From: Nocardioides marmorisolisilvae
GTDB taxonomy: Bacteria; Actinomycetota; Actinomycetes; Propionibacteriales; Nocardioidaceae
Length of the DNA: 64,000 bases
Reading direction: 5' to 3'
Assembly (NCBI RefSeq): GCF_031656915.1
Contig: NZ_CP134227.1
Coordinates: 992,001-1,056,000, forward strand
Under the pieces are notes generated by a model that saw only the letters and a list, made by a program, of their open reading frames with translations, had not been told where the DNA came from and ran no database searches. Positions within the stretch are counted from its first letter, which is position 1; the number at the start of each line of letters is the position of its first letter. Positions 37,745-59,000 of the stretch are shown piece by piece. Both the position numbers and the translations under genes were made by a program.

Positions 37745-38443
37745 ATGACTGCATCGAGCGAGGCGAACGAGTTCCCGGTCACCGCGCCGGCGAGCCACGA
37801 GGCGGTCGCGCAGGCAGTGGGGAGGCACCTTCCACTCTTCGGTCAGGTCCTCATCGAAGCGTGGGGCGGGTTCGCGACCACCCGCCGCTTGGCGGCGCCG
37901 CAGATGGCCTTTGCCGGCGCCTCCTCGCGCGGGATGCTGGTCTCGGACTTCACTCGTGAGCCGGCCCACCGCATCTTCAACCGGGTGCCTGAGGCCACCG
38001 TGGAGGACGACCAGTTCGGCCGGCCTTGGGTGAGCCTGGCCGGCGGCAGTCTCAGGGTCCGGTTCCGCAAGCTCACCTCCGAGCTCGGCCTGTGCCGCAG
38101 CGACTCCGACCGGGCGCTCAGCCTGGCCTACCACCTCGGCGACCCGTGCCTGCCGGGCATGGAGACGTTCACCGTCCTGACCGCTGGCTACGTCCTGGAC
38201 ACCGCCGAGGAGAACATCTCGCGCCTCGAGTTGGTCTGCCATCTCGGCTTCACCGACGTCTTCTACTCTCTTCCGATCCCACTCACCAGCATGACCAGCA
38301 CGACCCCTGTTGTTGGCTCGGTCGCCGGCCCGGTGCAGATGCCGCTCGCGCCGCTGTCGCCACCGATCATCCGCTCGGCGCAGACGGCCGCTGCCAAGCG
38401 CCTCGCAGCCGGCTCTCGCCCCGGAGGAGGTCGTGGTGTCTGA
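37745..38443 (+). CDS. unknown protein, first gene of the XRE-ImmA operon
   Basis: 232 residues with no signal peptide. A compact domain covers about residues 20-180 (HLPLFGQVLIEAWGGFATTRRL; GGSLRVRFRKLTSEL; NISRLELVCHLGFTDVFYSLPIP), followed by a Pro/Ala-rich tail. ATG at 37745 follows AGAGGATCGAG; an extended -10-like TGCTACGCT lies 37 nt upstream. The end overlaps the start of the XRE-ImmA gene by 8 nt, so they are co-translated. Upstream of XRE-ImmA proteins such a gene could be the regulated target or substrate of the peptidase. I do not recognise the family. Confidence 0.65.
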   Translation: MTASSEANEFPVTAPASHEAVAQAVGRHLPLFGQVLIEAWGGFATTRRLAAPQMAFAGASSRGMLVSDFTREPAHRIFNRVPEATVEDDQFGRPWVSLAGGSLRVRFRKLTSELGLCRSDSDRALSLAYHLGDPCLPGMETFTVLTAGYVLDTAEENISRLELVCHLGFTDVFYSLPIPLTSMTSTTPVVGSVAGPVQMPLAPLSPPIIRSAQTAAAKRLAAGSRPGGGRGV

Positions 38444-43509: not shown

Positions 43510-43899
43510 TCAGCTGGCCTGGGCCGGGCGGGCGGCGCGATCGATGCGCGCGGAGACGTACTTGAGCGAGACGCCGACCTCGCCGAAGCGGCTGTCGACG
43601 ACCACGACGTCCTTGGTGCGCTTCTCGCCGGTCTCCTTGTCCGGCCAGCTCTCGGTGCGCTCGAGGCCGTGGACGAAGATCGGGTCGCCGGATCCGCAGC
43701 TGTCGTGCACGTGGGTGGCGGCCGAGCCGAAGATATTGAAGTTGTGGGCAGTGGGCCCGTCGTTGACCCACTCCCCCTCGTCGTTCTGCACGCGCCGGTT
43801 GACCAGGACCCGGCAGCTGACGAACGGCTTGTTCTCGCGGGTGTAGAGCAGCTCGGGAGCCTCGGCCAGGTTGCCGGCGAAGGTGACGGTGGTGGACAT
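43510..43899 (-). CDS. ssb: single-stranded DNA-binding protein
   Basis: 129-residue OB-fold protein: VTFAGNLAEAPELLYTRENKPFVSCRVLVNRR matches the SSB N-terminus, and the FNIFGSAATHVHDSCGSGDPIFVHGLERTESW block matches the central strands. It lacks the long acidic C-terminal tail of chromosomal SSB and ends soon after the OB fold (ARPAQAS), as plasmid-borne SSBs often do. It is probably used in conjugative DNA transfer. The leader contains a 14-bp stem reaching into the ribosome site and a copy of the GTGATCGC-N20-TAGGTGAC element. Confidence 0.92.
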   Translation of the reverse strand: MSTTVTFAGNLAEAPELLYTRENKPFVSCRVLVNRRVQNDEGEWVNDGPTAHNFNIFGSAATHVHDSCGSGDPIFVHGLERTESWPDKETGEKRTKDVVVVDSRFGEVGVSLKYVSARIDRAARPAQAS

Positions 43900-43907
43900 G
43901 AGTTCCT

Positions 43908-43953
43908 CCTAGGTGACTGCGAGACGTCGGAATCGGTCCCGCAGTCACCTAGG
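43908..43953 (-). promoter_or_regulatory. 14-bp inverted repeat in the ssb leader, overlapping the ribosome site
   Basis: CCTAGGTGACTGCG (43908-43921) and CGCAGTCACCTAGG (43940-43953) are perfect inverted repeats separated by 18 nt. In the mRNA the 3' arm ends in CCTAGG, which is directly followed by AGGAACTC and the ATG, so half of the AGGAGG ribosome site is in the stem. It may control translation or serve as a protein-binding site. Confidence 0.6.
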
Positions 43954-43979
43954 TCCCGTCGGGCTCCCGCAGCGATCAC
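43944..43979 (-). repeat. bipartite 36-nt element, copy 1 (ssb)
   Basis: On the minus strand it reads GTGATCGC, 20 nt, TAGGTGAC, pointing toward ssb. The two boxes extend to direct repeats AGGTGATCGC and AGGTGACTGC whose starts are 31 nt apart. 29 of 36 positions equal copy 3 at 55991. Confidence 0.7.
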
Positions 43980-44053
43980 CTGGGCCGAACTTGTTCGTTT
44001 CCGCTCGTGCTCGCGAAGGAGCTGCTCCTCAGGGCGCAGTGAGGGCGCAAAGA

Positions 44054-44092
44054 AGCGCCCCGACCGGCTCTCGGGTACCGGATCGGGGCGCT
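44054..44092 (-). terminator. hairpin terminator after the partition-like gene
   Basis: AGCGCCCCGACCGG pairs with CCGGATCGGGGCGCT (one bulged base) across a 10-nt loop. It is located 55 nt after the stop of the gene at 44147-44602 and before the ssb promoter. Confidence 0.7.
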
Positions 44093-44146
44093 GAGAAGGA
44101 CGCGAGAGGCAGGGATCGACACAACTGTGCCGGCCACCAGCTGGGC

Positions 44147-44602
44147 CTACCGTGCCGGCCGCCGCCGCGGCGGTCGGTTGCTGAGCTTCTGCGGTGGCGG
44201 AGGCAGGTCGTGGCCGAGCCGCCGGCGGGATTCCTCGCCCGCGGCGATCACCGCTTCCTGGGCGAACGCGGAGCGGGCGAGCATCCGGCCGAGCTCCTGG
44301 CGGTCGGCCACGAGCGCGTCGTCGACGGCCTCGATGGTGGAGGCCGGCAGGTCGTGCTTCTTGTTGAAGCTCTTGCGGGTCACGCTGACCAGGGCGGGAT
44401 GCTTCTCGCTGGCGGCCGCGAGCTCGGCGCGCTGCTGGGGCGAGCGCCGGGCGTGCAGCTCGAGCGCCTGCGCGAGCCAGCCGACGAACGATCCGGGCGA
44501 GTCGGGGTCGGTGTCCAGGTCGGCGACGTAGGCCGATCGGGCGAGGTCCCACACGCCGGGCTTCCAGTAGATGCCGACCGGGGTCGTGGTCTGGCTCGTC
44601 AT
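44147..44602 (-). CDS. small plasmid-type protein, possible centromere-binding/partition protein
   Basis: 151 residues. The N-terminal GIYWKPGVWDLARSAYVADLDTDPDSPGSFVGWLAQALELHA could form a ribbon-helix-helix-like unit; the C-terminus LGHDLPPPPQKLSNRPPRRRPAR is basic and Pro-rich. From memory, proteins with this layout accompany partition or replication genes of actinobacterial plasmids. It is transcribed divergently from the ParB-like gene, as partition genes can be. The ATG at 44602 is chosen since MTSQTTTPVG is a normal start; the upstream extension has no support. Assignment tentative. Confidence 0.5.
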   Translation of the reverse strand: MTSQTTTPVGIYWKPGVWDLARSAYVADLDTDPDSPGSFVGWLAQALELHARRSPQQRAELAAASEKHPALVSVTRKSFNKKHDLPASTIEAVDDALVADRQELGRMLARSAFAQEAVIAAGEESRRRLGHDLPPPPQKLSNRPPRRRPAR

Positions 44603-44908
44603 GCCGCCACTCCCCTGGCCCAGCGCCAGCTGCAGCACCTGGCGCTAACACCAACGCCGCTGCATTCCCGGGCGGGGCCGTGCGCAGCCGTTCCCACTCT
44701 CGCTCGATTCCTTCCGTCCAGACAGCTACGAGGGTGCAGCTGCGCCGCGTCGCCGCAGCGGAGTCCGCCTCCGTAGGAGCGGGGTTTTCCCCACCCTCCG
44801 GACGTGCCCACCTTTCCACAGGTTCGCGCTGTGAGCCGGTAGGCGTCGGCCCCGTTGGGAGACTTGGTCCTGTCAGTTCTTTCTATTCTACTCACGGAGG
44901 ACAGCCGC
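44603..44908. other. divergent promoter region between the partition-like gene and parB
   Basis: 306 nt with no gene. It contains GGGTTTTCCCCACC and TTTCCACAGG stretches (44782-44823) and, just before the parB ribosome site, GTTCTTTCTATTC (44876-44888), which is repeated exactly, in opposite orientation, before the relaxase gene. Confidence 0.5.
44876..44888. promoter_or_regulatory. GTTCTTTCTATTC box before parB
   Basis: The 13-nt sequence GTTCTTTCTATTC is the exact reverse complement of 55957-55969 upstream of the relaxase. Related sequences (GTTCGTTT) occur near 43993 upstream of ssb and at 52299 before the DUF932 gene. It is a likely promoter element or operator of the mobile element. Confidence 0.5.
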
Positions 44909-45523
44909 ATGACCGACACCATCCAGACCGACGCCGTCACCACCACCGAGGGCACCGACGCCGCCCCGGCTGAGGAGTTCCTGCACCTGGACCCCGCCGA
45001 CATCATCATCGGCACCAACGTCCGCACCGACCTGCGACCCGACCACAAGGAGTTCCGCAAGTCGATCAAGGAGCGCGGCGTCATCGAGGCCGTCACGGTC
45101 TACCGCAACGAGGACGGCCAGTACGTCCTGCTGCGCGGCCAGCGCCGCACCGTGACCGCCGCCGACGTCGGCACCCCGACCGGCCTCATCCCGGCGCGGG
45201 TCGTCCCCCAGCCCGCCGAGACCGACCGGATCGGTGACCAGATGGTCGAGAACATCCACCGAGCCGGGATGCGCGAGACCGAGATCGTCGCGGGCGTGGA
45301 GCAGCTGGCCCTGCTCGGCGTGAGCGCAGCGCAGATCGCCAAGCGCACCAGCATCGACCGCCCGACCGTGAACGCCGCCCTGGCGGTCACCAAGGCCGAC
45401 CAGACCCGCAACCGGCTCGACTCCGGCGATCTGACCTTGGAGGAGGCCGCGATCTTCGCCGAGTTCTCTGTTATCTCGACACGCCGGAGTGGCTATGTTC
45501 CCAGCATGGGGACTGCGGCCTGA
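44909..45523 (+). pseudogene. ParB-like protein, N-terminal part (gene split by transposon)
   Basis: ParB/Spo0J-type N-terminus: LDPADIIIGTNVRTDLRPDHKEFRKSIKERGVIEAVTVYRNEDGQYVLLRGQRR is the ParBc fold with its nucleotide-binding RGQRR motif, followed by a HTH (VSAAQIAKRTSIDRPTVNAAL). The frame leaves parB at AEF (45464) and runs 19 codons into the transposon before stopping. The C-terminal part is at 51189-52216; joining 44909-45464 to 51189-52216 gives 1584 nt, exactly 528 codons. A truncated 204-residue protein with both DNA-binding parts may still be made. ACGGAGG precedes the ATG by 8 nt. Confidence 0.9.
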
Positions 45524-45552
45524 TGGGCTGAGTACCGGCGAGGGAGGCCGGT

Positions 45553-46680
45553 GTGCGGGTGGTCAAGGAGCGAGAGGACGGGATCGTCCGTCGCGTGATG
45601 CTGGTCGACGAGTCCGGTGACGAGGTGGTGCCGGTCAATCGGTTCCTGTCCCATCTGGTCGATTCGGGGTACAGCCCGAACACGGTGTGCGCCTACGGCT
45701 ACGACCTGCGGCACCTGGCCCAGTTCCTGGCCGATCGATCGCTGGGCTGGAACGACTTCCGGCCGGCGATGGCGCTGGAGTTCCTCGGCTATCTGCGGCG
45801 GGTGCCGTCGCGACGGCCGGCGCAGCGACTTGGCCTGACGGTCGCGACCGGACAGGGGCGGCTGCTGTCGCCGGCGACGGTGCAACGTGTACTGGCCGCG
45901 ACGTCGAGCTTCTTCGACTGGGCGATCGCGGCCGAGCAGTACACGACCGGTGAGAACCCGATGCAGCGGCGAGTCGACCTCGCGCTGGGCCGGGTGCATG
46001 AGCGTCATCAGCCGTTCGTGGGCGCGGCGAGCCGTCAGCAGCCGATTCGCCGTACGGTGCGGGTCCGGCTTCCGCTGCGGTTGCCGCGGCCGATGAGCAG
46101 CGGGGACATCGACGCGCTTCTGGCCAGCCTGACGACGATGCGCGACCTGGCGATCAACTTGTTGATGCTCGACGGCGGCCTGCGTCCGGGCGAGGTGCTG
46201 TGCCTGCAGCTGGACGACATCTCCTATGGGCGCCGGCGAGTGACGGTCCGCAAGCGCGATGACCACCCTCGTGGCGCCAGGGCGAAGGCACGTCACGAGC
46301 GGGTGGTGGACCTGCATGAGCCGCGCACGCTGGACGCGGTCAACCGGTACGTGCTGCACGAACGCCCGCTGGATGCGGAGAGCCCGTTCGTGTTCCTGGT
46401 CGGCGGCGCCGGTGCGCGTCGGTGCGAGCCGCTGAGCTACCAGGCCGTGGTGCGCGGGTTCGCCCGCCGGCTGGATCGGCTGGGGATCCGGTCGCCGGAC
46501 AAGACGCCGCACGCGCTGCGCCACACGCACGCGACCGCGATGTGGGAGGGCGGGATGCGGCAGCTGGCCTTGCAGAAGCGGCTCGGGCACGCCTCGCCGG
46601 AGTCGGTTCGCATCTACACCCGAGTCTCGGACGAGCAGGTGCTTGCCGACTACGACCACGCGCTGCGGGACCGGTCGTGA
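45553..46680 (+). CDS. tyrosine recombinase A of the transposon (TnpA-like)
   Basis: 375 residues. The N-terminal SAM-like domain (LVDSGYSPNTVCAYGYDLRHLAQFL) is followed by the catalytic domain with Arg in GGLRPGEVL, a Lys region RRRVTVRKRDDH, His-x-x-Arg in HALRHTHAT, His in KRLGHAS and Tyr in RIYTRVSD. GTG at 45553 follows GGAGG. It overlaps the second recombinase by 4 nt (GTGA), as the tnpA/tnpB pairs of Tn554-like elements do. Confidence 0.9.
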   Translation: MRVVKEREDGIVRRVMLVDESGDEVVPVNRFLSHLVDSGYSPNTVCAYGYDLRHLAQFLADRSLGWNDFRPAMALEFLGYLRRVPSRRPAQRLGLTVATGQGRLLSPATVQRVLAATSSFFDWAIAAEQYTTGENPMQRRVDLALGRVHERHQPFVGAASRQQPIRRTVRVRLPLRLPRPMSSGDIDALLASLTTMRDLAINLLMLDGGLRPGEVLCLQLDDISYGRRRVTVRKRDDHPRGARAKARHERVVDLHEPRTLDAVNRYVLHERPLDAESPFVFLVGGAGARRCEPLSYQAVVRGFARRLDRLGIRSPDKTPHALRHTHATAMWEGGMRQLALQKRLGHASPESVRIYTRVSDEQVLADYDHALRDRS

Positions 46681-48773
46681 CCGCGGCCGGTCCGACGCGG
46701 CATCTCACCGCGGCACCTGACCCCGAGGTGGTGCCGTGGGTGCACGCCGACCGGGCGACCTACCAGGAGTGGGTGGAGCAGCACTGCACCAGCTACGCGT
46801 CGTGCTGGGACCGGATGAAGAACTACGACCGGTTCGTCGAACGGTGGCCGTCGTTGCAGGACTGGTTCGATGCGCCGTTGCGGCAGCGGCTGCTGGACAA
46901 GGAGAACTGCGTGCGTGGGCAGAATCCGCACGGCGGCGCGAGCGTGATCATGCCGTACCTGAGCTACTTGTCGCTGGTGCACGGCGTCGGTCTGGACTAC
47001 CCGGTGCTGCTCGCCCGGACGTTCACTAGCCCGTTCAAGCTCCAGGCCCGTCACGGTGGCCTTGGTGTGGATGCCGGCCTGTTCGACCGGCACGTGGCCA
47101 GGCTCACCGAGCTCGGCTACGCCACGGCGCGCACGCAGTTGGTCTGGCCGCTGGGCCGGATGCTGCTGCACCGCGGCGATCCGGACCTGACCGTGCTGGG
47201 TGTGGACGACCTCGACGAGCTCCGCGACGCGATCGACGCCTTCACCGCTCGGCTGCGGCTGGACCCGGTGCGGGAGTTCTACTCCCGGGCGCCGGACGCC
47301 CGACCGCCGGCAGTGGTAGCCGACGGGTACCTGCGTTCGGCGACCGCTCGCTTGCACGCGGTGCACGTGTTGCTGTTCGACCTCGGTCAGGTCAACCGGC
47401 CGCCGACCGGACGTGTCACCGCGGGCAGCTGGGTGGACCGGCTCGCTCCGCCGGGGGCGCCGCCGAAGGTCCGCGCCGTCATCGAGCGCTACCTGCGCCT
47501 GCACCTGGACGCCAACCTGGACCGGCCACAGACCGTGCGCCACGCTCGGGACGCGCTGCGCCGCCTGGTGACCTGGATGGGCGAGGCGCATCCGGAGATG
47601 GCCAGCCTGGCCGATCTGCACCGCGAGCACGCCGAGCAGTTCTTGCGCTGGCTTGGCACGCAGACCAACCAACAGACCGGCGCTCCGTTGAGCATCAGTT
47701 ACCGGCGAAGCGTGGTCACGCTGATCACCCGGTTCGTGACCGAGACCGCCGCGTGGGGCTGGGACGACGTCCCGGCGCGGGTGCTGTTCACCCGTGGCGA
47801 CATCCCGAAGATCCCCAAGCCGCTGCCGCGGTTCATCCCCGACCACGAGCTCGCCAGGCTGATGACCGCGGTCGAGCAGCTGCCCAACCCCTATCAGCGG
47901 GCGGCGTTGATCGTGGCCCGGTGGAGCGGCGCCCGGCGCGACGAGATCCGCCGCCTCGCCGTCGACTGCCTCGACACCTACCCCGACGGGCACCCGCGGC
48001 TGCGGATTCCCGTCGGCAAGGGATACGCCGAACGCAGCATCCCGCTGCACCCACAAGCCGCCGACGCGCTGCAACCGCTCATCGAGCTGGCCCGCCGCAC
48101 GGGCGGTCGTCGGCGCTACGACCCCAGCGCCGGCAGGGAGGTCCAGCACATCTTCGTAGTGCGCGGCAAACTGCTGTCCAAGTCGCTGCTGTTCGACATG
48201 GCCCTCGCCGAGGCCTGCACCGCGGCGGGCTTGGTCGACCCGGCCGGCAAAGCGACGATCACCGCGCACCGATTCCGGCACACCATCGGCACCCAGCTCG
48301 CCGAAGGCGGAGCCCGGATCCAGACGATCATGGCCGTGCTCGGGCACGCGACGCCCAACATGTCGATCATCTACTCGACCTTGTCCGACCCAACCGTCAA
48401 GCAGCAGTACCAAGACGCCCTCGACCGCCACATCGGAGCCGACGTCACGCTCGCCGGGCCGGCCGCGGACGCCCTTCGTGAGCACCGGCTCGATCCCGAA
48501 GCGGTGTCGTGGTTGCAGACCAACTTTCTCAAGACCGAGCTCGAACTGGGCCACTGCCTGCGCACGCCGGCCGAGGGGCCTTGCGAGTGCGACCTCGTGT
48601 TGACCTGCTCGAAGTTCCTCACCACCAGCGACTACGCACCCCGTCTGCGCGCACGCCTTGAGGTCGAGCAGCAGCTCATCGACGACGCCACCGCGCGAGG
48701 ATGGCCACGCGAGATCGAGCGGCACGAAGCGACCAAGCGACGCCTGGAGCAGCTCCTCCACGACCTGGCCTGA
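46677..48773 (+). CDS. tyrosine recombinase B of the transposon (TnpB-like)
   Basis: 698 residues. Long N-terminal region (about 1-290) without known motif, a SAM-like domain around residues 280-360, and a catalytic domain with Arg in WSGARRDEIR, Lys in GKGYAERSIPL, His-x-x-Arg in TAHRFRHTIG, His in LGHATP and Tyr in IIYSTLSD. The C-terminus has a cysteine cluster (GHCLRTPAEGPCECDLVLTCSKF) and a helical end, as in TnpB proteins of Tn554-type elements. The GTG start overlaps the TnpA-like stop. No third protein (TnpC) was recognised. Confidence 0.9.
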   Translation: MTAAGPTRHLTAAPDPEVVPWVHADRATYQEWVEQHCTSYASCWDRMKNYDRFVERWPSLQDWFDAPLRQRLLDKENCVRGQNPHGGASVIMPYLSYLSLVHGVGLDYPVLLARTFTSPFKLQARHGGLGVDAGLFDRHVARLTELGYATARTQLVWPLGRMLLHRGDPDLTVLGVDDLDELRDAIDAFTARLRLDPVREFYSRAPDARPPAVVADGYLRSATARLHAVHVLLFDLGQVNRPPTGRVTAGSWVDRLAPPGAPPKVRAVIERYLRLHLDANLDRPQTVRHARDALRRLVTWMGEAHPEMASLADLHREHAEQFLRWLGTQTNQQTGAPLSISYRRSVVTLITRFVTETAAWGWDDVPARVLFTRGDIPKIPKPLPRFIPDHELARLMTAVEQLPNPYQRAALIVARWSGARRDEIRRLAVDCLDTYPDGHPRLRIPVGKGYAERSIPLHPQAADALQPLIELARRTGGRRRYDPSAGREVQHIFVVRGKLLSKSLLFDMALAEACTAAGLVDPAGKATITAHRFRHTIGTQLAEGGARIQTIMAVLGHATPNMSIIYSTLSDPTVKQQYQDALDRHIGADVTLAGPAADALREHRLDPEAVSWLQTNFLKTELELGHCLRTPAEGPCECDLVLTCSKFLTTSDYAPRLRARLEVEQQLIDDATARGWPREIERHEATKRRLEQLLHDLA

Positions 48774-48956
48774 CGCTCACCGCCCGTGTTGGTATGCCCG
48801 CGAATGCCGGGAGCCAATCCGGGCACGCCACAGTTACAGTATCAACGCCTTCGCCATCAGGTTCGGTGACCGCTGGCCGGCCGCCGAGACCTACTAACCG
48901 AAGACGCCAGGTAACACCGTCCGTGCGATAGACCCAGACACCTTACGGACCAGCGG

Positions 48957-49610
48957 TCAACGCGTGGTTCGATCCTGACGAGTGTCCGGCGCAGGCCGGC
49001 ATAACGCGTGCTCGGCGGTGTCGGCCAGGGTGGTGGTGACCGTGTGGGTGGACAGTCGTCGGCCGGTGAACAACAGGTCGAAGCTGTCGAAGCCGGTGAG
49101 GAGCCACAGCACGTCGGAGGCCTGGTCAGCGGTGATTCCGTCGCGCAGCGTGTGCTGGTCGTGGAGGCGTCGGGCGAGGCCGTTCATACCCTCGGCGCGG
49201 CCGTGTTCCAGGCGTTGGACTGATCCGCCGACTGCGTCGGCGTCGAGTTGGGCCATGGAGAACAGGGCGCGCAGGACGTCACGGTGAGCCGCGTACATGT
49301 CCACATTTCCGCGGATGCCGTCGCGCAGGGCCTGTCGGGCGTCGGGCTGCAGAACGGCGTGGACCATGCCTGTGAAGCCGCCGCGGTGGAGTAGGTCCAT
49401 GCCGAGCGCGTCGAACAGGCCCGCACGAGACCCGAAGACCGTGTAAATGGTCGACCGGGCCACCTCGGCGAGTTTGGCGACCTTGTCCAGGCTGACCGGT
49501 TCGGACGGCGCGTTGACGAGCTGCTGGTAGACCGCGTCGAGGATGCGGCGCTTGGTGTCCAGGGCGGCCTGGGCACGCAGCCGCTGCTCGTACTTCCGCC
49601 TGGGGGGCAT
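48957..49610 (-). CDS. TetR/AcrR-family regulator
   Basis: 217 residues. HTH at about residues 20-65: TKRRILDAVYQQLVNAPSEPVSLDKVAKLAEVARSTIYTVFGSRAGLFDAL, the TetR signature. The C-terminal ligand domain is helical. It is divergent from the monooxygenase-like and FMN reductase genes, 112 nt away; three 19-nt-spaced repeats in that gap are its likely operator. It should repress the cargo genes and itself until an inducer, probably an electrophile or quinone, binds (inference). Confidence 0.9.
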   Translation of the reverse strand: MPPRRKYEQRLRAQAALDTKRRILDAVYQQLVNAPSEPVSLDKVAKLAEVARSTIYTVFGSRAGLFDALGMDLLHRGGFTGMVHAVLQPDARQALRDGIRGNVDMYAAHRDVLRALFSMAQLDADAVGGSVQRLEHGRAEGMNGLARRLHDQHTLRDGITADQASDVLWLLTGFDSFDLLFTGRRLSTHTVTTTLADTAEHALCRPAPDTRQDRTTR

Positions 49611-49641
49611 GAACCCACCCTAGCATTCACTTGACATAGCG

Positions 49642-49690
49642 TCTCGTGAAAGACACGCTGTCCGATGAAAGCCAGGCCGTCTGATGAAAG
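49642..49690. promoter_or_regulatory. three direct repeats at 19-nt spacing, likely TetR operator
   Basis: TCTCGTGAAAG (49642), TCCGATGAAAG (49661) and TCTGATGAAAG (49680), each exactly 19 nt apart, between the divergent TetR and monooxygenase-like genes. A TTGACA box lies at 49631-49636. Confidence 0.6.
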
Positions 49691-49722
49691 TGGCCTGCCG
49701 AGAACAGTGAAAGGAGCCGGGC

Positions 49723-50037
49723 ATGCGGGTGCTGATCCGCTACACGGTCAAACCTGAACACATCCGCCGCAGCACCGAACTGCTGCGCGCGGTCTACGCG
49801 GACCTGGAACGCACCAGGCCGACGGGGCTGCGCTACGAGACGTTCCAGGTGGAGGGCACCGGCCAGTTCCTGGCCCTCATGGAGTCGGACGGTGGCCCAG
49901 GTGACGCCGCGCACCACCGGCTCGCCTCGTTCCAGCGCTACCGCGCCGAACTCGACGACATCTGCGCCGAACCGCCTACCGTCGCCCACCTGGAGACCGT
50001 CGGCGACTACCGATCCGCTGACCCCACCCCATCATGA
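49723..50037 (+). CDS. antibiotic-biosynthesis-monooxygenase-like (ABM) small protein
   Basis: 104 residues with a dimeric alpha-beta-barrel layout: MRVLIRYTVKPEHIRRSTELLRAVYADLERTRP, then strand YETFQVEGTGQFLALM and HHRLASFQRYRAELDDICAE. Proteins of this fold include quinol monooxygenases such as YgiN. AAAGGAG lies before the ATG. The FMN reductase gene follows after 19 nt; together they may form a quinone or aromatic detoxification pair carried as transposon cargo. Confidence 0.7.
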   Translation: MRVLIRYTVKPEHIRRSTELLRAVYADLERTRPTGLRYETFQVEGTGQFLALMESDGGPGDAAHHRLASFQRYRAELDDICAEPPTVAHLETVGDYRSADPTPS

Positions 50038-50056
50038 CCGCAAGGAGGTACCAATC

Positions 50057-50677
50057 GTGATCCGCATCGCCGTCGTCGTCGGCAGCACCCGTCCCGGCCG
50101 CCGTGGCGAGTCGGTGGCCCACTGGGTCGCCAACACCGTCGCAGCACACCCCGCCGTCACCGACGGCCGAGCCGCAGCCGAGTTCGTCGACCTAGCAGCC
50201 TTCGATCTGCCCCTGCTCGACGAGCCGGTCCCCGCCGCGTTCGCCAGCTACGCCCATGCCCACACCCGCCGCTGGGCGGACACCGTTGCGGGTTTTGATG
50301 GGTTCGTGTTCGTCACCCCGGAGTACAACCATTCCTTCCCCGCAGCGCTGAAGAACGCGATCGACTTCCTCTACGCCGAGTGGCACGACAAGGCCGCCGG
50401 GTTCGTCGGCTACGGCATCCACGGCGGCACCCGCGCCGTGGAACAACTGCGCCAGATCATGGCCGAGGTGAAGATCGCCGACGTGCACACCCAGGTAGCC
50501 CTGTCCATGTTCGCCGACTTCACTTTCACCAACCCGGCCGATCCCACTGACCCGGGAACCTGCACTCCCGGCCCGCACCACGCCGACGCCCTGGCCACCA
50601 TGCTCGACGAGGTTATCGCGTGGTCGGCGGCACTGAAGCCGCTGCGCGCCCCCGCCGCCGAGCCGCAGTCCGTCTGA
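50057..50677 (+). CDS. NADPH-dependent FMN reductase family protein
   Basis: 206-residue flavodoxin-fold reductase: IRIAVVVGSTRPGRRGESVAHWV gives the phosphate-binding loop, LPLLDEPVPA is a conserved turn, and FVFVTPEYNHSFPAALKNAIDFLYAEW is the signature of azoreductase/quinone-reductase-type members. GTG at 50057 is 7 nt after AAGGAGGT. It is the second cargo gene under the TetR regulator and could supply reduced flavin or reduce quinones and nitro or azo compounds. Confidence 0.9.
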   Translation: MIRIAVVVGSTRPGRRGESVAHWVANTVAAHPAVTDGRAAAEFVDLAAFDLPLLDEPVPAAFASYAHAHTRRWADTVAGFDGFVFVTPEYNHSFPAALKNAIDFLYAEWHDKAAGFVGYGIHGGTRAVEQLRQIMAEVKIADVHTQVALSMFADFTFTNPADPTDPGTCTPGPHHADALATMLDEVIAWSAALKPLRAPAAEPQSV

Positions 50678-51177
50678 CACCGACACGCGGTCGGGTGCCG
50701 TGGGCAGACAACGCGCCCACCGCCCGGCCGCGCGTCCAGCCCACGGACCGCCGAAGAATCGAGGCAGTGTGCCGGACCCGCAGCTCGACCAGCCCCGGCC
50801 ACCCGGGGCAGAGCGCAACCTGCCGCGATGGTAGGCATGCAGACGCCCTGTCAGCGCGCCGCACAACGGGCACGACACCGGCACGTCTGCAGGCCGCGCC
50901 AGCACCAAACGTCCGCAGCGTCATCCATGAGCAGCGAAGACAGTTCCGGCATCAGAGTCTTGATCAAGTCGTGATCGCACCGCTGTGACCTTAGGTTTTG
51001 GGCGTCGGGTGGCGGCGTGGCGGGTGTGGTCCGTGAGGTTCTTGGTGGTTCCTCAACACGCCGTCAGAACCAGGAACCACACCCGCCGATGCCATCTTCG
51101 CCCACGACCCTCGTCTGTGTGCAACCCGTCGGCGATGGGCGCCGTCCGTCCTGTCATTCGGCTTGACAGACCAGAAT
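50678..51177. other. right arm of the transposon, no gene seen
   Basis: 500 nt between the FMN reductase gene and the right terminal repeat without a credible ORF. An 11-bp inverted repeat GCGGGTGTGGT (51020-51030) and ACCACACCCGC (51076-51086) is present, perhaps a terminator or a scar of an older insertion. Confidence 0.45.
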
Positions 51178-51188
51178 TGTCCACATAA

Positions 51189-52216
51189 TCGAGCACGACC
51201 CCGAGGCCGTGGAGCGCCTGGAGTACGCCAAGCGCTTCCGCCGCTCCCTGACGCACGAGGCACAACAGCTGCGTGACGAGGTCGCCGAGCGCGAGGCCGA
51301 CGCCGCCGAGGTCGAGCGGCTGCGCGGCGAGGGCCTGCCGGTACTGACCGCCGAAGAGGTCGCGGCGGCTGACGAGGTGCTGCGCATCGAGCGTCTGCTC
51401 AACGCCGAGGGCGAGCCGGTGCCGGAGGAGGAGTGGCCCAGCGTCCCGGGCGCTCGCGTCCACGTCGTCAAGGAGTGGGTCTACCCCGAGGACGAGTACG
51501 ACGAGAGCGAGGACGACACCGACTACGAGGCCGACGACTACGAGCCCGCCGAGCCCTACCGGCAGTACGTGCCGGTGTGGGTCGTTACCGACCTCGACGC
51601 CTCCGGCCTGCGGCGTCGTGGCGGCGTCAGTGGCGGCGCGAGCAGCGGCAGCACCGCCGACGAGGACGCGGGCGAGAGCGAGGAGGAGGCCGAGGCCCGC
51701 CGCGAGGAGCGCCGCCGTGTGATCGCCTACAACAAGGCGTGGGCCAGTGCGGAGACGGTGCGCCGCGAGTGGCTGGCCGGGTTCGTCGCTCGCAAGACGG
51801 CCCCGAAAGGAGCCGAAGCCCTGATCTGCGAGGCGGTCGTCACCGGCCACCACTCGCTGAGCAAGGCCATGGACCACCGGCACCCGATGCTCTTCACGCT
51901 GCTCGGCATCCCGGCCCCGACCGGCTACTACGGCGCAGGCCAGGACGAGTGCCGCAAGATCACCACCAAGGCGACCACTCCGAAGGCCGCGACCATGACC
52001 ACGCTCGCCGCCGTCGTCGCCGCATGGGAGGCGACCACCGGCAAGCACTCCTGGCGCAACCCGAGCGCGTGGGACGCCCGCGTGCTCGGCGCGCTCGTGG
52101 AGTGGGGTTACCAGCCCAGCGAGGTCGAGTGCATCCTGCTCGGCGAGGAGCCCGAGCCGGACGCCGACACGGAGGGCGAGGCCAACGCCGACGAGGCCAG
52201 CGACAGCGCCGCCTGA
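51189..52216 (+). pseudogene. ParB-like protein, C-terminal part
   Basis: Continuation of the gene at 44909: EHDPEAVERLEYAKRFRRSLTHEAQQLRDEVAEREADAAEVERL is a coiled-coil region, followed by a very acidic stretch (DEYDESEDDTDYEADDYE) and a C-terminal domain with EWLAGFVARKTAPKGAEALICEAVV. It has no start codon of its own with a ribosome site; a GTG at 51209 is possible. In the restored gene the product is 527 residues, a size seen for ParB-like proteins of actinobacterial conjugative plasmids. Confidence 0.85.
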
Positions 52217-52331
52217 CGCGTCGCCCCTCCCCCACCCGAGGGCGGTTCTCCCTGTGGAGAACCGCCCCTCAGTGGAATAGAAACCATAGAATAACTCAGT
52301 TCGTTTGATCCGCTACCCGGGAGGACCCCGC

Positions 52332-53341
52332 ATGTCACACGAGATCGAGACCCACGGCACGCAGGCTGCCGCCGTCTTCGCCCGCAAGGACGCCTGGCAC
52401 CGGCTGGGCACAACCGTCCGCGACCGCGCATTCTCCGCCGAGGAGGCCATGACGCTCGGCCACCTGGGCGGCTGGGAGGTGCGCAAGTTGCCGCTCACCA
52501 CCGCCGAGGTCAGCGAGGGCGGCGCGGCGTCACGCCGATCGAGATCCCCGGGTTCGCCACGGTGCGCACTACCCCGTTCACCGGCCAGCCCGAGGCGCTC
52601 GGCGTCGTTGGCGGCGGCTACACCCCACTGCAGAACGAGGACCACGCCGAGTTCCTGAACCTGCTGGCCGACGAGTCCGGCGCGATCTTCGACACAGCCG
52701 GGTCGCTACGCGGCGGGCGGCAGGTGTTCATCACGATGCAGCTGCCGAACTCACTCACGGTCGGCGGCACCGACCGCGTCGACCTCAACATCGCCGCGCT
52801 CAACAGCCACGACGGCAGCAGCGCGTTCCTCATCCTCGTCACGCCGGTCCGCGTCGTGTGCGCGAACACCCAGAGCGCGGCCCTGCGCAACCACGAGTCG
52901 TCGTTCTCGATCCGGCACACGCGCAACGCCAAGGCCGCCGTCCAGGCCGCCCGCGACGCGCTCGGGCTGACCTTCACCTACGTCGACGCGTTCCAGGTCG
53001 AGGCCGAGCGGCTGATCCAGCAGACCATGACCGACGCGACGTTCGACGCCCTGATCGACGCCACGTTCGGCAAGGCCGAGGCCAGCGCCACCAAGCGCGT
53101 CCGCGAGACCGAGCGCCGCCGCCGCTCCCGGCTGCACTGGCTGTTCGCCGACGCCGAGACCCAGGCCGGCATCCGCGACACCGCGTGGGCCGGCTATCAG
53201 GCCGTCGCGGAGTACGTCGACCACTACGCCCCGGTCCGCACCAAGGGCGACGAGGCCGCTGCCCGCGCCACTCGCGTGCTCACCAGCGACGACCCCGACC
53301 GGATCAAGCGCCGCGCCTGGACCGCGCTCGCCCCGGCCTGA
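52332..53341 (+). pseudogene. DUF932 phage/plasmid-like protein, one frameshift
   Basis: MSHEIETHGTQAAAVFARKDAWHRLGT is the conserved opening of the DUF932 (phage/plasmid-like TIGR03299) family. The frame breaks at about 52530 in GGCGGCGCGGCGTCACG; the following frame gives TPIEIPGFATVRTTPFTGQPEALGVVGGGYTPLQNEDHAEFLN and continues to the normal end. One missing base explains it (1010 nt, two more than a multiple of three). All else is intact, so a sequencing error is possible. GGGAGG lies before the ATG. Function unknown; common in conjugative elements. Confidence 0.85.
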
Positions 53342-53418
53342 CCATCCGCGCCAGTTCTTCCGGTGGCGGGCTGAGACCCCGAGTCCGGCCCGCCACCGGC
53401 CCAACCGAAGGAGGAGCC

Positions 53419-53874
53419 ATGACCGAAGCCACCGCCCTCGATACCGAGCAAGTCCGCGCATGGGAACTCCGGCCCACCGACACCCTGGTCGACCCCACAA
53501 CCGGCGTCGCGTTCCCCATCACCACCGTCTCCGTGGATGAGCCCGGCCGCGCGGGACGCAGGGTCCACATCACCGCCCTGGTCCTCGGCGCCCGCATCCT
53601 GCCGCTCAACCAGTTCGTCACCATCGCGAAGCGGGACAACACCCCGACTTCCCCTGCCGCCGACGTCGAGGCCAGCGCCGCCAAGGACCGGCACACCCTC
53701 AGCGAGACGGCCTGCGACCTGATCGTCATCGAGCACCGGCTGCGCGACGTGCGCCGCTGGACCCCCGAGACCGCCAGCGCCCACCTGGACGCGGCCCTGT
53801 CCAGCGTCGCCACGGCGCTGGACGCCCTGCACGCCGAGTACGCCCACCGCACCACCACCGAACAGGAGCAGTGA
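53419..53874 (+). CDS. hypothetical plasmid-type protein
   Basis: 151 residues, mixed beta then helical. The first half (LRPTDTLVDPTTGVAFPITTVSVDE; GRRVHITALVLGARILPLNQFVTI) looks like a small beta-barrel, the second half is a helical hairpin. AAGGAGGAG precedes the ATG. The stop shares a base with the next start (TGATG). No family recognised; the neighbours are typical of conjugative plasmids. Confidence 0.6.
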   Translation: MTEATALDTEQVRAWELRPTDTLVDPTTGVAFPITTVSVDEPGRAGRRVHITALVLGARILPLNQFVTIAKRDNTPTSPAADVEASAAKDRHTLSETACDLIVIEHRLRDVRRWTPETASAHLDAALSSVATALDALHAEYAHRTTTEQEQ

Positions 53875-54179
53875 TGTCCAAGCAGACCCAGCCGGAGCCG
53901 ACCGGCACCGTGATCAGCGAGCGCGACCAGCGCCGCATCCTCGCCGCCATGACGCGGATGCCGTACGCGGCCAGCAGCCGCGTCCCGAAGCCGTGGACGG
54001 CGCTGCGCGAGACCGTCACCGCCGATGCCGTCTTGGCGTTCCTCGACGGCCTCGCCGAGGTCCTGACCGAGGTCGCCGCAGAGAGCGACACGCACCGTCG
54101 TCGCCTGTTCTCCCTCGAGGCCGACATCGAGGCGTTCCGCCGCCTCATCGGCACCGCGCCCGCCGAGGTGACCCCGTGA
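53874..54179 (+). CDS. small hypothetical plasmid-type protein
   Basis: 101 residues, helical: SERDQRRILAAMTRMPYAASSRVPKPWTALRE, then VLTEVAAESDTHRRRLFSLEADIEAFRRLIG, which could form a coiled coil. The ATG at 53874 overlaps the preceding stop by one base, and its own stop overlaps the next GTG (54176). Part of a chain of coupled small genes. Function unknown. Confidence 0.55.
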   Translation: MSKQTQPEPTGTVISERDQRRILAAMTRMPYAASSRVPKPWTALRETVTADAVLAFLDGLAEVLTEVAAESDTHRRRLFSLEADIEAFRRLIGTAPAEVTP

Positions 54180-54422
54180 GCGCGCACATCGAGTGGCTGG
54201 CCGCCCGCGAGACCAGCGTCCAGGTGTTCACACCCGGCGACGACTGGATCGGCGCCGGGGAGCACCGCCAGCCCGTCCTGACCCTCGCCGGTGACGAAGT
54301 GGTCGCGATCCAGGGGCACGCCCGCCGAGTTGCGCGCACTGGCCGTCCGGATCACCGCCGTGGCCACCGCCGCGTCCGGTCGGCTCGACCTGGCCGCCGC
54401 ACGAGAGGACCAGCCCGCATGA
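54176..54422 (+). pseudogene. small hypothetical protein, frameshifted
   Basis: GTG at 54176 begins MSAHIEWLAARETSVQVFTPGDDW and continues to GDEVVAIQG; after a run of four G at about 54315 the natural continuation TPAELRALAVRITAVATAASGRLDLAAARE is in another frame and ends with a TGA that overlaps the next ATG at 54419. One extra base explains it. No family known. Confidence 0.55.
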
Positions 54423-54768
54423 GCGACGACGCCAGCCTCCGCGCCCTGGAGGAGCGCGCGACCCCGGCCCCTGGACTCCGGACGGCGACAAGATCCGTGC
54501 CACCGCCGCCGACGCCCTGATCCCGGACAACATCCTCGCGGCCTACTACACCGGCCACCGTCACCGGCTCGGCCTCAAGACCACCGGCCACGCCGCCGAC
54601 GTGGAGTTCATGGCCGCTGCCCGCACCGCGCTGCCTGACCGGCTCGACCGGCTCGACCGCATTCGCGCTCTTCACGCCAAGTGGGGCGAGCAGTCGCCCG
54701 AGGACGCGGACGGCTACCTCGACCTGTGGGAGACGCTCGGTCGGCTCCTAGACGGCGAGCCCGGCTGA
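54419..54768 (+). pseudogene. small hypothetical protein, frameshifted
   Basis: ATG at 54419 begins MSDDASLRALEERATPAP; a base is missing near 54472 (GCCCCTGG), after which the other frame gives DGDKIRATAADALIPDNILAAYY, then VEFMAAARTALPDRLDRLDRIRALHAKW and a proper end EDADGYLDLWETLGRLLDGEPG. It resembles small ead/Ea22-like helical proteins of phages and plasmids only in general layout. It ends just before the hairpin at 54780. Confidence 0.55.
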
Positions 54769-54779
54769 CCAACAACCGC

Positions 54780-54813
54780 AAGGCCGCCCGTGCCATCGGT
54801 GCGGGGCGGCCTT
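54780..54813. terminator. bidirectional hairpin terminator
   Basis: Perfect 10-bp stem AAGGCCGCCC with GGGCGGCCTT and a 14-nt loop, between the convergent genes ending at 54768 and 54828. Confidence 0.8.
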
Positions 54814-54827
54814 CTGCGTCCGGCTGG

Positions 54828-55355
54828 TCACCACAGGGTCAGTTGCTCGCCCAGCAGCTCCTGGAGCCGCGCGAGGTCGTCGGCTACGAGCTGCGGGTCC
54901 TCACGCGCCAGGTCACGCAGTTCCCGAGCCCGCCGACGCGGCCCGCGCGGGTCGGCCAGCGGGCTGTACGGCAGTCGCCGTTGGACGGCCCACTCCTGCC
55001 GGTTCTTGCGCGCCGTCGAGACCACGACGTGTTCCGGCGCGATCCGCTGGCACAGCGGGTTGTGACAGCGGTGCCCGAGCAGCCGCGCCTCCGCGAGCGC
55101 GTCCACACCGTGCATCACCGCGTACGCGAACCGGTGGGCGATGATCACCCGACCCGGCGCGTACCAGAACCGGCCATGGCCACCGCCGTCGGTGCGCTCC
55201 CGCTCGGACCGACCCGAGACCGCCCCGGTCCACCACAGGCACTCACTGCCCGGCACCGTGGCCACCTTCGCCCGGTAGCGCGTGAGCACCGCCGGGTCTG
55301 TGAGCGCCGCCGCGACCGCCGCGAGGCCGGCGTCATCGAGCCGCCGAGCCGGCAC
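54828..55355 (-). CDS. HNH endonuclease-like protein
   Basis: 175 residues. ECLWWTGAVSG, GHGRFWYAPGRVIIAHRFAYAVMHGV and LLGHRCHNPLCQRIAPEHVVVSTARKNRQEW together give the layout of phage-type HNH nucleases (AHR, then C-x4-C with an H-x-V end). The GTG start at 55355 has a GGGAG box and overlaps the previous gene by 23 nt. It may be a plasmid-borne nuclease or a domesticated homing-type enzyme. Confidence 0.7.
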   Translation of the reverse strand: MPARRLDDAGLAAVAAALTDPAVLTRYRAKVATVPGSECLWWTGAVSGRSERERTDGGGHGRFWYAPGRVIIAHRFAYAVMHGVDALAEARLLGHRCHNPLCQRIAPEHVVVSTARKNRQEWAVQRRLPYSPLADPRGPRRRARELRDLAREDPQLVADDLARLQELLGEQLTLW

Positions 55356-55722
55356 CCGCTCCCCCGCTCTCGGCCGCCGCGTCGGGCTCCCGCTCGGCGG
55401 CCGGGCCGCCCTCGGTCTCCGCGCTGCCGGCCGGTGCGGCCAGCCGCCGCAGCCGCGTCGCCTCCCGCACGGTGATCGTCTCGCCGCACCACTCGACCGC
55501 CTCGCCCAGGGACAGCCCCTCGACCTCGGTCAACTCCCGCAGCGCATCCCCAGCGCGCTTCTCGGTCTCGGCCACCGCCGCGTCACGCTGGCCGATCGCC
55601 ACCATGACCTGTTCGGCCAGGCCGACCACCCGGCGCTCGCGCTCCTCACGCTCGCGCCGCCTCTTGTCGGCCATCTCCCGCGCCGTACGCCGCGCCTGCT
55701 GCTTGATCGTCTGCTGACTCAT
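55333..55722 (-). CDS. coiled-coil hypothetical protein divergent from the relaxase
   Basis: 129 residues, strongly charged: KQQARRTAREMADKRRREREERERRVVGLAEQVMVAIGQRDAAVAETEKRAGDALRELTEV is a likely coiled coil, followed by GLSLGEAVEWCGETITVREATRLRRL, perhaps a HTH. Ala/Glu-rich tail. It could be an oriT-accessory or regulatory protein, given its place opposite the relaxase. A copy of the GTGATCGC-N20-TAGGTGAC element is in its upstream region. Family not recognised. Confidence 0.6.
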   Translation of the reverse strand: MSQQTIKQQARRTAREMADKRRREREERERRVVGLAEQVMVAIGQRDAAVAETEKRAGDALRELTEVEGLSLGEAVEWCGETITVREATRLRRLAAPAGSAETEGGPAAEREPDAAAESGGAGAGSAAR

Positions 55723-55756
55723 CGGTCCTCACTCCGTGTCGACATGGACTCTGACA

Positions 55757-55792
55757 GTCACCTACGACAAATCCCGGTCCCCGTGCGATCAC
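55757..55792 (-). repeat. bipartite 36-nt element, copy 2 (coiled-coil gene)
   Basis: On the minus strand GTGATCGC, 20 nt, TAGGTGAC, pointing to the gene starting at 55722. Box spacing equals the other two copies. Confidence 0.7.
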
Positions 55793-55956
55793 CTCCGGCC
55801 AAGAAGCCTTCCGAACCCACCAACCTCGACCCCAGCCAGCCCGTTCAACTCCCGCAGCCCGACCCGACGCCCCAGCCGTCACCGACACCCCTCAGCGTCC
55901 CCCCAGATTTCCGCGACCTTCCAAGTGCCACACACCTCTTGCATTCTCGGTCTGCC

Positions 55957-55969
55957 GAATAGAAAGAAC
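55957..55969. promoter_or_regulatory. GAATAGAAAGAAC box before the relaxase
   Basis: 13-nt exact reverse complement of the box at 44876-44888 before parB; it lies 21 nt upstream of copy 3 of the bipartite element. Confidence 0.5.
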
Positions 55970-55990
55970 ACATCAGCAATCCGACCGGAA

Positions 55991-56026
55991 GTGATCGCAG
56001 CGGGCGCCCGCGCGCACGTAGGTGAC
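55991..56026 (+). repeat. bipartite 36-nt element, copy 3 (relaxase)
   Basis: GTGATCGC, 20 nt, TAGGTGAC, directly upstream of and overlapping the GTG start of the relaxase gene. Together with copy 2 it borders the divergent intergenic region. Confidence 0.7.
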
Positions 56027-59000
56027 CGTGACGATGAGCCTCCACAAGCTGACGGCGGGGTCGGGGTACGACTACCTGACCCGCCAGGTCGCAGCGATGG
56101 ACGCCACGGATAAGGGCCACACCGGCCTCGCGAGCTACTACACCGAGAGGGGCGAGACTCCCGGCGTGTGGGTCGGCTCCGGCATGGAGGGACTCGAAGG
56201 GCTCGACGCCGGCGACGTCGTCACCGCTGACCACATGCAGAGCCTGTTCGGCTCCGGTCACCACCCGCTGGCCACCCAGCGGACCAAGGACCTGGACCTG
56301 CGCATCGGCCGCGACGGCGTCGACCGGCCGACCGACGCGGACTACAAGACGGCCCGCCAGCTCGGCACGCCGTACAAGGTCTACGAAAACGACATCAGCC
56401 CGTTCCGGATCGAGGTCGCCAAGCGCATCGCGGCCCTCAACGAGGCCGCCGGCCTGCCGGGTGACTGGCCGGTCCCCGCGGCCGACCGGGCCAAGGTCCG
56501 AACCGAGGTCGGCACCGAGTTCTTCCGTGCTGAGCACGGCCGCGAACCCGCCGACGCACGCGAGCTGGCCGCCGCGATCGCCAGGCACTCCCGACCGAAG
56601 ACCAACGCGGTGGCCGGCTACGACCTGACCTTCTCCCCGGTCAAGAGCGTCTCGGTGTTGTGGGCGATCTCCGACCCGAAGACCGCCGCGGTGATCGAGC
56701 GGGCCCACCAGGCGGCGATCAAGGACGCGCTGGGCTTCATCGAATCCAAGGCACTGTTCACCCGCCGGGGCACCAACGGCGTCCGCCAGGTCGACGTCCG
56801 CGGCCTGGTCGCCACGGCGTTCACCCACCGCGACTCCCGCGCGGGAGACCCTGACTTGCATACGCACGTCGCCGTTGCGAACAAGGTCCAGACGCTCGAC
56901 GGCAAGTGGCTGGCCATCGATGGCCGGCCGCTGCACAAGGCGGTGGTCTCGGCCTCGGAGACCTACAACACCGCGCTCGAGCGGCACCTGGTCGACGCCC
57001 TCGGCGTGCGGTTTAAGGAGCGGCCGAACGAGGACGCCCGCAAGCGGCCGGTGCGCGAGATCGTCGGCGTCGACCCCGAGCTGAACCGCCGCTTCTCTAA
57101 GCGCCGCGCCAGCGTCGAGGACCGCCGCAAGGTCCTCGCGGCCGCGTTCCATGCCACCCACGGCCGCCCGCCGACGCCGGTGGAGACCATCCAGCTGTCC
57201 CAGCAGGCGACGCTGGAGACCCGCGAGGCCAAGCACGAGCCGCGCTCGCTGGCCGAGCAGCGCGAGACCTGGAGCCGTGAGGCCATCGAGGCGCTGGGCA
57301 CCCCTCAACGGGTCAAGCAGATGGTCCACGGGGCGCTGAACCCGAAGGGCGCAGCGCGGTCGCTGGCCGACTCGGCCTGGTTCGCCAAGACGACCGACCG
57401 GATCGTGGCGACGATGGAGGGAGCTCGGAGCACCTGGCAGTTCTGGCACGTCTACGCCGAGGCCCAGCGGCAGGTCCGGGGCGCCAACGTGCCCACCAAC
57501 CAGGTCTCCCAGGTCGTCGAACTGCTCGTCAGCGAGGTCCTCGACGGCCGCTCGGTGAGCATGGCCCGACCCTGGGACGCCATCAGCGAACTGGTCGAGC
57601 TGCGGCGCGCGGACGGGGCCTCGGTCTACACCCAGAGCGGCGCCGTGCTGTTCACCTCGGGCAAGGTACTCGCCGCCGAGCAGCGTCTGGTCGAGGTCGC
57701 CGGCCGCCACGACGGGTACGCCGTCGAGCCGTCCTCGGTCGACCTGGCGCTGCTCGAGTCGACCGCCAACGGCATCACCCTCAACGCCGGACAGGCCACG
57801 CTGGTCCGCGAGATGGCCACCTCCGGTGCCCGGCTGCAGCTGGCGATCGCGCCCGCCGGATCCGGCAAGACCACCGCGATGCGAGCCCTGGCCAGCGCCT
57901 GGGCTGATGGTGGCGGCACCATCATCGGTCTGGCTCCCTCAGCGGCGGCCGCGGACGCGCTCCGCTCGCAGATCGACACCCAGACCGACACCCTGGCCAA
58001 ACTAACCCACTCGCTCGAGCAGGCCCGCGAGTCCGGCGCCGCGATGCCCGCCTGGGTCGCCGGCATCGACGCCTCCACCCTCGTGGTCATCGACGAGGCC
58101 GGGATGGCAGACACCCTCTCGCTGGACGCGGCGGTGTCCTACATCCTCGAGCGCGGCGGCAGCGTCCGCCTGATCGGCGACGACCAGCAGCTCTCCGCGA
58201 TCGGCGCCGGCGGCGTCCTGCGCGACATCCGCGCCACTCACGGAGCACTGCAGCTGACCGAGCTCGTCCGGTTCAAGGACCCCGCCGAGGGCGCCGCCTC
58301 GCTCGCGCTGCGCGAGGGCAAGCCCGAGTCGCTCGGCTTCTACCTCGACCGCGACCGCGTCCACGTCGGCGACCTGGCCACCATGACCGAGGACGTCTTC
58401 GCCGCCTGGCAGGCCGACCGTGCCGCCGGCCTGGACTCGATCATGCTCGCCCCCACCCGCGACCTGGTCAGCGAGCTGAACCAGCAGGCCCGCGCCCACC
58501 GGCTCGAGGGGATCGACCCGGCCGACCCCGACCATGAGTCCGCCAGCGGCCCGGTCCGCCGGCTCGCCGACGGCAACGAGGCCTCGATCGGCGAACTGAT
58601 CATCACCCGCGAGAACGACCGTCGCCTGCGTACTTCGGCTACCGACTGGGTGAAGAACGGCGACCGCTGGAACGTGCTGGAGATCCACGACGGCGGCGAC
58701 CTGACCGTCCAGCACACCCAGCACGGCCGCACCGTGCGGCTGCCCGCTGACTACGTCGCCCGATCCTCCGAGCTCGGCTACGCGTGCACCGTGCACACCG
58801 CCCAGGGCGTCACCGCCGACACGATGCACGGCCTGGCCACCGGCAGCGAGTCGCGCCAGCAGCTCTACACGATGATGACCCGCGGCGCGCACGCGAACCA
58901 CGTCTACCTCGAGGTCGTCGGCGACGGCGACCCGCACTCGGTGATCCACCCGACGCTGGTCCGGCCGCTCACGCCGACTGACATCCTCGAGTCGGTGCTG

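Follow-up and report, generated by a model that had tools for sequence, protein, structure and literature searches.

The question raised by this locus is why several genes of a conjugative element carry the same bipartite 36-nucleotide (nt) sequence in front of them, and which protein reads it. The window, that is, the whole stretch of 64,000 nt analysed here, corresponds to bases 992001-1056000 of the 4.23-Mb Nocardioides marmorisolisilvae genome. The pattern GTGATCGC-N20-TAGGTGAC, whose two parts are called box 1 and box 2 below, was present in exact form at 43944-43979 (minus strand), 55757-55792 (minus strand) and 55991-56026 (plus strand), upstream of ssb, of a coiled-coil gene and of a MobF relaxase gene, respectively. 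A sequence-only reading of the window had described these three copies, each directed at its own gene, and was exact on both position and direction. The element that carries them has an integrase, the MobF relaxase, a coupling protein and type IV secretion system (T4SS) genes, which are features of a MobF T4SS-type integrative and conjugative element (ICE). Our results showed that the 36-nt element is genuine and spread more widely than that reading described, and its central claim of a regulatory element shared by the promoters of the conjugative element was strongly supported by the sites, their spacing and the related elements.

The window contained five matches with at most three mismatches, against 0.55 expected, and none of 100 shuffles reached five. 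A fourth copy at 31442-31477 (plus strand), which has one mismatch and precedes xis-int, had been overlooked, and the fifth match, at 50971-51006 (three mismatches, TAG absent), is probably due to chance. The whole genome had 16 places with at most two mismatches and the reversed control pattern had none. Eleven of these places lie within 1023442-1109027, while the remaining five, each with two mismatches, are outside; all nine copies with no or one mismatch lie inside one stretch of conjugation genes of about 86 kb.

The spacing was scanned over 144 kb around the element, with spacers of 10 to 33 nt and mismatch limits of two and three. A spacer of 20 nt gave 11 sites with at most two mismatches and any other spacer gave none or one; when three mismatches were allowed, there were 15 sites with the 20-nt spacer and 0 to 8 with the others. 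All 11 sites with at most two mismatches are directed at a gene, the end of box 2 being 7 to 52 nt from the start codon (gene starts are our own predictions, except for the annotated ones on the plasmid pCHL). The operons behind them are those of xis-int, ssb, the 129-amino-acid (aa) coiled-coil protein, the MobF relaxase, a membrane protein with the coupling protein, the T4SS, a CpaB/Tad-type system and four short or unknown genes, some of these names having been given by eye.

The exact pattern TGATCGC-N20-TAGGTGAC was found in 80 of the 341 genomes of our family survey and its reversed control in none. On pCHL, a 110-kb circular plasmid, each of the eight sites with at most two mismatches is followed, after 7-51 nt, by an annotated coding sequence on the same strand. 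A ninth pCHL site, in front of a cpaB-like gene, has a spacer of 19 nt and its ortholog in our element one of 20 nt, and two other pCHL matches with 19-nt spacers look like chance. The claim of an exact 20-nt spacing held in that this is the sole spacer enriched over the 144 kb, and failed for the cpaB-like promoter of pCHL and for diverged elements, in which 19 nt occurs; conservation of the spacing in related elements was borne out overall, with these exceptions. pCHL (NZ_CP124682.1; loci L267, L298 and L299) is typed as non-mobilizable in PLSDB, although its annotation includes a mobF relaxase, a type IV secretion protein and a protein with a TraM-recognition domain.

A scan of genome contigs for the site returned at least 120 loci. 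From the 120 listed, 55 were dropped by record title (other phyla, one unclassified record, and L044, L057, L095 and L109, which are Actinobacteria outside Propionibacteriales), and 65 loci with 84 exact sites were kept; five further loci from a viral_contigs scan are outside all counts. The figures given here and below for kept loci, kept sites and site classes apply to the matches listed. The named records are mainly Nocardioides and Pimelobacter. A recognised gene was present within 450 nt and on the same strand for 79 of the 84 kept sites: ssb (19), the coiled-coil gene (18), the relaxase gene (13), the membrane protein gene (9), xis-like genes of several kinds (16) and others (4). Eight of the queries used for this typing (seven xis-like and one other) derive from typed loci, so that the rows of these loci include self-matches.

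The sites were clustered at 60% identity over 120 nt into 29 site classes, which are diverged and not fully independent, and the conservation around the boxes was determined. Before TAG, a C was present in all 29 classes and an A in 22; box 2 is followed by a pyrimidine and a purine in 29 of 29, and box 1 is preceded by G in 25 and followed by T in 18, with an A/T-rich tract 10-18 nt upstream. When TAGGTG is taken as positions -12 to -7, a purine is found at the expected transcription start in 26 of the 29 classes, and the promoter geometry that we assume puts box 1 at -39 to -33 and the A/T tract, presumably, at the position of a distal UP element. For at least three genes of our element an upstream-activator geometry was rejected, because box 2 is only 7, 17 and 19 nt from their starts and an activator would have no space to bind ahead of a separate promoter. 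These sequence features give good support to the reading of the site as a core promoter, in which TGATCGC would be the -35 box and ACnTAGGTGAC the -10 box, with a usual spacing of 20 nt.

The leading candidate for the protein that reads this putative promoter, the best but not one that the data single out, is a 317-aa sigma-like protein of the element itself. Its gene is at genome positions 1070194-1071147 on the minus strand, 14 kb past the window, and ends 8 nt before the site copy that precedes the T4SS operon. The C-terminal helix-turn-helix (HTH) of the 317-aa family is similar to sigma region 4, with an hhalign score of 41.1 (P 6e-5, probability 65%), compared with 12.6 for the reversed control and 6.7-11.7 for 20 shuffles, and Pfam Sigma70_r4 matched 9 of 26 family members at E values up to 1, the best being 0.0011. 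All ten T4SS-linked homologs (50-84% identity) have a site-like sequence at the stop codon or no more than about 25 nt past it; four of these have at most two mismatches out of 15 and six, recognised by eye, have three or four, and the spacer is 20 nt in nine and 19 nt in one. In one genus, the genes of all five distant homologs that scored 82-90 bits have a VirB4-like gene on the same strand at a distance of 5-6.5 kb. This VirB4-like gene belongs to another T4SS family (54-55%), which indicates that the linkage of the 317-aa gene to conjugation genes is old. A VAAN stretch of the protein looks like region 2, but this was judged only by eye. The sigma factor annotated on pCHL had no match in the other loci then compared and was rejected as the common reader, a supposed member of the 317-aa family at 14 kb of the window was spurious, and no relatives of the 317-aa protein were found in viral and phage collections.

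Several results weigh against this assignment. Pfam and NCBIfam matches of the 317-aa family are weak, those with a curated cut-off falling below it, and the match of our own protein has an E value of only 0.053. The region 2 (N-terminal) half, which is required of a sigma factor, scored 11.6 versus 11.5 for its reversed control, with shuffles up to 10.0, and is not significant, for which reason the protein is called sigma-like only. Smaller profile comparisons gave probabilities of 18.5% and 28.5%, solved structures gave no convincing match, and the 317-aa gene was not itself seen to be preceded by a site. Enrichment of the 20-nt spacer is not clear in G161, G247 and G279, which hold the most diverged elements. 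A strong 317-aa ortholog is missing from ten genomes with two or more sites; among them, G205 is also devoid of virB4 and the T4SS genes, which it has lost, and the contig of G290 appears to stop before the expected place of the gene, and the remaining eight are unexplained or hold other element types. A deleted copy of the element in G063, outside the genus of the distant homologs, is also without the gene, G022 has three 317-aa homologs and no site with at most one mismatch, and our own genome has three more distant members of the family outside the element (at 266596, 2422226 and 2869225). The 317-aa gene is present in nine diverged element regions (50-120 kb each) by construction, as these were chosen for containing it, and 11 other genes are also in all nine; the coiled-coil gene is in six, the tandem XRE gene in three, the tandem DnaA-domain gene in two, a ParB-like gene in one, and the XRE-ImmA and 211-aa protein genes in none.

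Co-occurrence of genes with at least two sites was measured by the phi coefficient in 215 genomes of the main genus, with bit cut-offs of about 270 for the 317-aa protein, 700 for VirB4, 100 for the coiled-coil and tandem XRE proteins and 150 for the tandem DnaA-domain protein. The 317-aa gene and the sites occurred together in 40 genomes, the sites only in 10, the gene only in 3 and neither in 162 (phi 0.83). The corresponding numbers were 44, 6, 5 and 160 for the coiled-coil gene (0.86), 41, 9, 5 and 160 for virB4 (0.81), 39, 11, 4 and 161 for the tandem XRE gene (0.80) and 29, 21, 1 and 164 for the tandem DnaA-domain gene (0.70). This comparison shows that the sites are tied to the element family, without naming the reader; it cannot tell the first four of these genes apart, and our confidence in the 317-aa protein was lowered because this unbiased set does not discriminate.

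The same site could also be a bipartite operator that overlaps a host-sigma promoter and is bound by an activator or repressor of the element other than a sigma factor, which would be either the 317-aa protein, acting by means of its HTH, or else the tandem XRE protein or a further linked protein. This is possible but doubtful. In its favour, only the region-4-like HTH is supported and not region 2, and two strong HTH stretches (HTH_3, E 2e-20) are present in the tandem XRE protein, whose phi is 0.80. However, the spacers vary, often consist almost wholly of G+C and contain no host -10-like element that is conserved, the additional conserved bases are at the expected promoter-contact positions, the spacer differs by 1 nt between orthologs, and G225, G239 and G315, which have at least three exact sites and the 317-aa gene, are without the tandem XRE gene at 100 bits. 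We consider it unlikely that a host chromosomal sigma factor reads the promoters and that the element merely exploits it. Sites do survive in genomes and element remnants without the 317-aa protein, and 25 host loci are above the TIGR02937 sigma cut-off, but the confinement of the closest copies of our genome to one conjugation stretch, the absence of an exact copy from 261 of the 341 family genomes and the position of 79 of the 84 kept sites before conjugation, ssb, xis-like or other element genes all argue against this reading.

The sequence-only reading had suggested cooperative binding to AGGTGA direct repeats 31 nt apart on one face of the DNA, with the AbrB-like or the coiled-coil protein as candidate regulators. 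GTGA does recur in both boxes at this distance, but the first GTGA has no conserved AG in front of it, the two boxes have different extended consensuses (gTGATCGCt versus ACnTAGGTGACyr) and 19-nt spacers exist, so that cooperative binding to direct repeats was not upheld. The coiled-coil protein has the highest phi of the five genes tested; however, this is partly built in, as its own site is counted, the gene is a site-bearing target, and no DNA-binding domain was found in the protein with Pfam (best match REV, E 0.05). G303, in about 50 contigs, has three exact sites and no coiled-coil gene at 100 bits. On its co-occurrence the coiled-coil protein could still be a regulator, but cooperative binding of a dimeric regulator to such direct repeats is very improbable. 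Two copies upstream of the relaxase gene could suggest an oriT or the iterons of a replication protein instead of promoters, but about a dozen dispersed, gene-directed copies, including those of the xis, T4SS and pilus operons, make this scarcely credible.

Taken jointly, the two statements that the site is the core promoter of a transfer regulon and that the 317-aa protein is its reader stand, in our estimation, at about an even chance of being right. Promoter activity, recognition by the 317-aa protein, its identity as a true sigma factor and the response of satellite elements are steps that we infer, and they would combine as follows. Once made, the element's own 317-aa sigma-like protein would read the core promoters and switch on the xis-int, relaxase, ssb, coupling protein, T4SS and accessory operons together, which would coordinate excision with transfer. 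A mobilizable element that lacks a T4SS but has this promoter in front of its xis would then be excised when a helper is active.

One candidate for such an element was delimited. G117 (contig C1, 12422-27043; L402/L403) has a 14.6-kb element between 48-nt repeats of a tRNA-Ala 3' end, with a MobF relaxase gene, a site, two xis-like genes, an integrase gene and, by eye, restriction and abortive-infection-like genes. It had no match to the T4SS proteins of our element or to the 317-aa family among its listed genes, which are those that start from base 14000 onwards; the genome also holds two 317-aa family loci. A similar order of relaxase, site and xis-like gene was seen in L031, L032, L033, L053, L061, L115, L122 and L133 (7-8 kb viewed in each), and the xis-like gene of L061, a relative of that of G117, matched HTH_17 below the cut-off (23.8 of 27 bits). 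In G007 (contig C43, 294577-323308; L323, L324 and L325), two tandem stretches lie between 28-29-nt repeats of a tRNA-Leu 3' end, each with a site 140-170 nt inside one end, directed outward across conserved sequence; inspection of the first by eye revealed no integrase. Attachment repeats were not found for the satellites in L133, L115, L114 and G170. The site before the xis-like genes of the G117 element suggests SGI1-like hijacking, by analogy with which the satellites may respond to the regulator of a helper. The wider proposal, that actinobacterial conjugative elements have their own divergent sigma factor and private promoter and that a satellite guild wired to the same promoter (mobilizable elements with several xis-like kinds, and cargo elements at tRNA-Leu) moves with the helper, is put forward tentatively.

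Within the window, the site at 31442-31477, with a predicted transcription start near 31482, has its box 2 40 nt before the predicted start of xis (31518-31793, plus strand), which encodes a 91-aa excisionase-like HTH protein (Pfam HTH_17, E 3.2e-8) and is followed by int (31890-33083, plus strand), a tyrosine integrase gene (Phage_integrase, E 9.4e-17). The coiled-coil gene, so called in the sequence-only reading, is at 55333-55722 on the minus strand, 34 nt from its site, and has no significant Pfam match. The relaxase gene (56034-61925, plus strand) encodes 1963 aa with TrwC (3.2e-88), AAA_30 (5.8e-58), DNAG_N (5e-26) and Toprim_2 (1e-10) matches in Pfam. Box 2 ends 7 nt before its ATG at 56034, which would leave the mRNA almost without a leader; this ATG is our choice, and GTG codons are located just upstream. 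The protein is a relaxase-helicase-primase fusion, with DNAG_N and Toprim domains besides the helicase domains. The element also gave matches to Pfam TraG-D_C and T4SS-DNA_transf; its VirB4-like gene had no Pfam match, and the apparent pCHL counterpart is two genes after an annotated type IV secretion system protein. No convincing attachment repeat was found for our element and its ends were not located.

The ssb gene (43510-43899, minus strand; Pfam SSB, E 1.3e-14) starts 44 nt from its site, with a predicted transcription start near 43939. An 18-bp inverted repeat (43908-43953, minus strand), 94% complementary, overlaps box 2 of this site with its 5' arm and enters the Shine-Dalgarno sequence with its 3' arm. 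The read-through RNA folded at -44.4 kcal/mol (z -4.18), compared with -10.6 from the predicted start; the stem would form in the former, which includes both arms, but not in the latter, and it may block translation of read-through RNA. The 3' arm, GTCACCTA, was present within one mismatch in all 19 ssb-type sites listed and exactly in 17.

Other genes of the element were also observed. A CpaB/Tad-type pilus operon, named by eye and from the pCHL annotation, occupies genome positions 1077359-1092501 of this conjugative element and begins behind a site. Two DnaA domain-IV-type HTH domains are joined in one chain at genome positions 1099156-1100079 (L146:3156-4079), in the element and downstream of a site. 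A three-gene recombinase unit (a recombinase, a small HTH protein and a third gene) is at 1083439-1086660, and its homologs are at another position in the decayed G205 element. In the window, an XRE-ImmA/IrrE-type protein is encoded with an upstream partner gene at 37745-39527 and was in none of the nine diverged regions.

Our literature searches found no publication on the motif or its regulator. If true, the proposed arrangement would be a control switch for widespread, little-studied actinobacterial conjugative elements and plasmids, would provide a simple DNA signature for finding element genes and satellites, and would extend the hijacking of helper regulators outside Gammaproteobacteria, apparently by sharing of a core promoter and not of an activator box. 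Alternative sigma factors of phages and plasmids are cases in which the sigma factor of a mobile element reads a private promoter; region 2 of the 317-aa protein, in comparison, is not significant. In SXT/R391 ICEs, SetCD is reportedly a single element-encoded regulator that acts at many operons, and the proposed regulon likewise has one element regulator for many operons, while the class of regulator and the hosts differ. The pSAM2-like actinomycete integrative and conjugative elements are under Pra/KorSA control, with regulated xis and int and an FtsK-like translocator (PMC3218068). They are likewise actinobacterial and integrative; our element instead has a MobF relaxase and T4SS genes. AcaCD of IncA/C plasmids is the helper's master regulator of transfer genes, whose site is also carried by the xis promoter of the mobilizable island SGI1, where it times excision; it is an activator of the FlhDC family that binds upstream of the promoter, with a protected area of about 40 bp located 31 bp upstream of the xis start (PMC4605294). 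Our system resembles AcaCD and SGI1 in that the same site is found at conjugative transfer operons and before xis-like genes of an element without T4SS matches. It differs in that the site itself has the geometry of a core promoter, the candidate reader is sigma-like and the hosts are Nocardioidaceae and their relatives.

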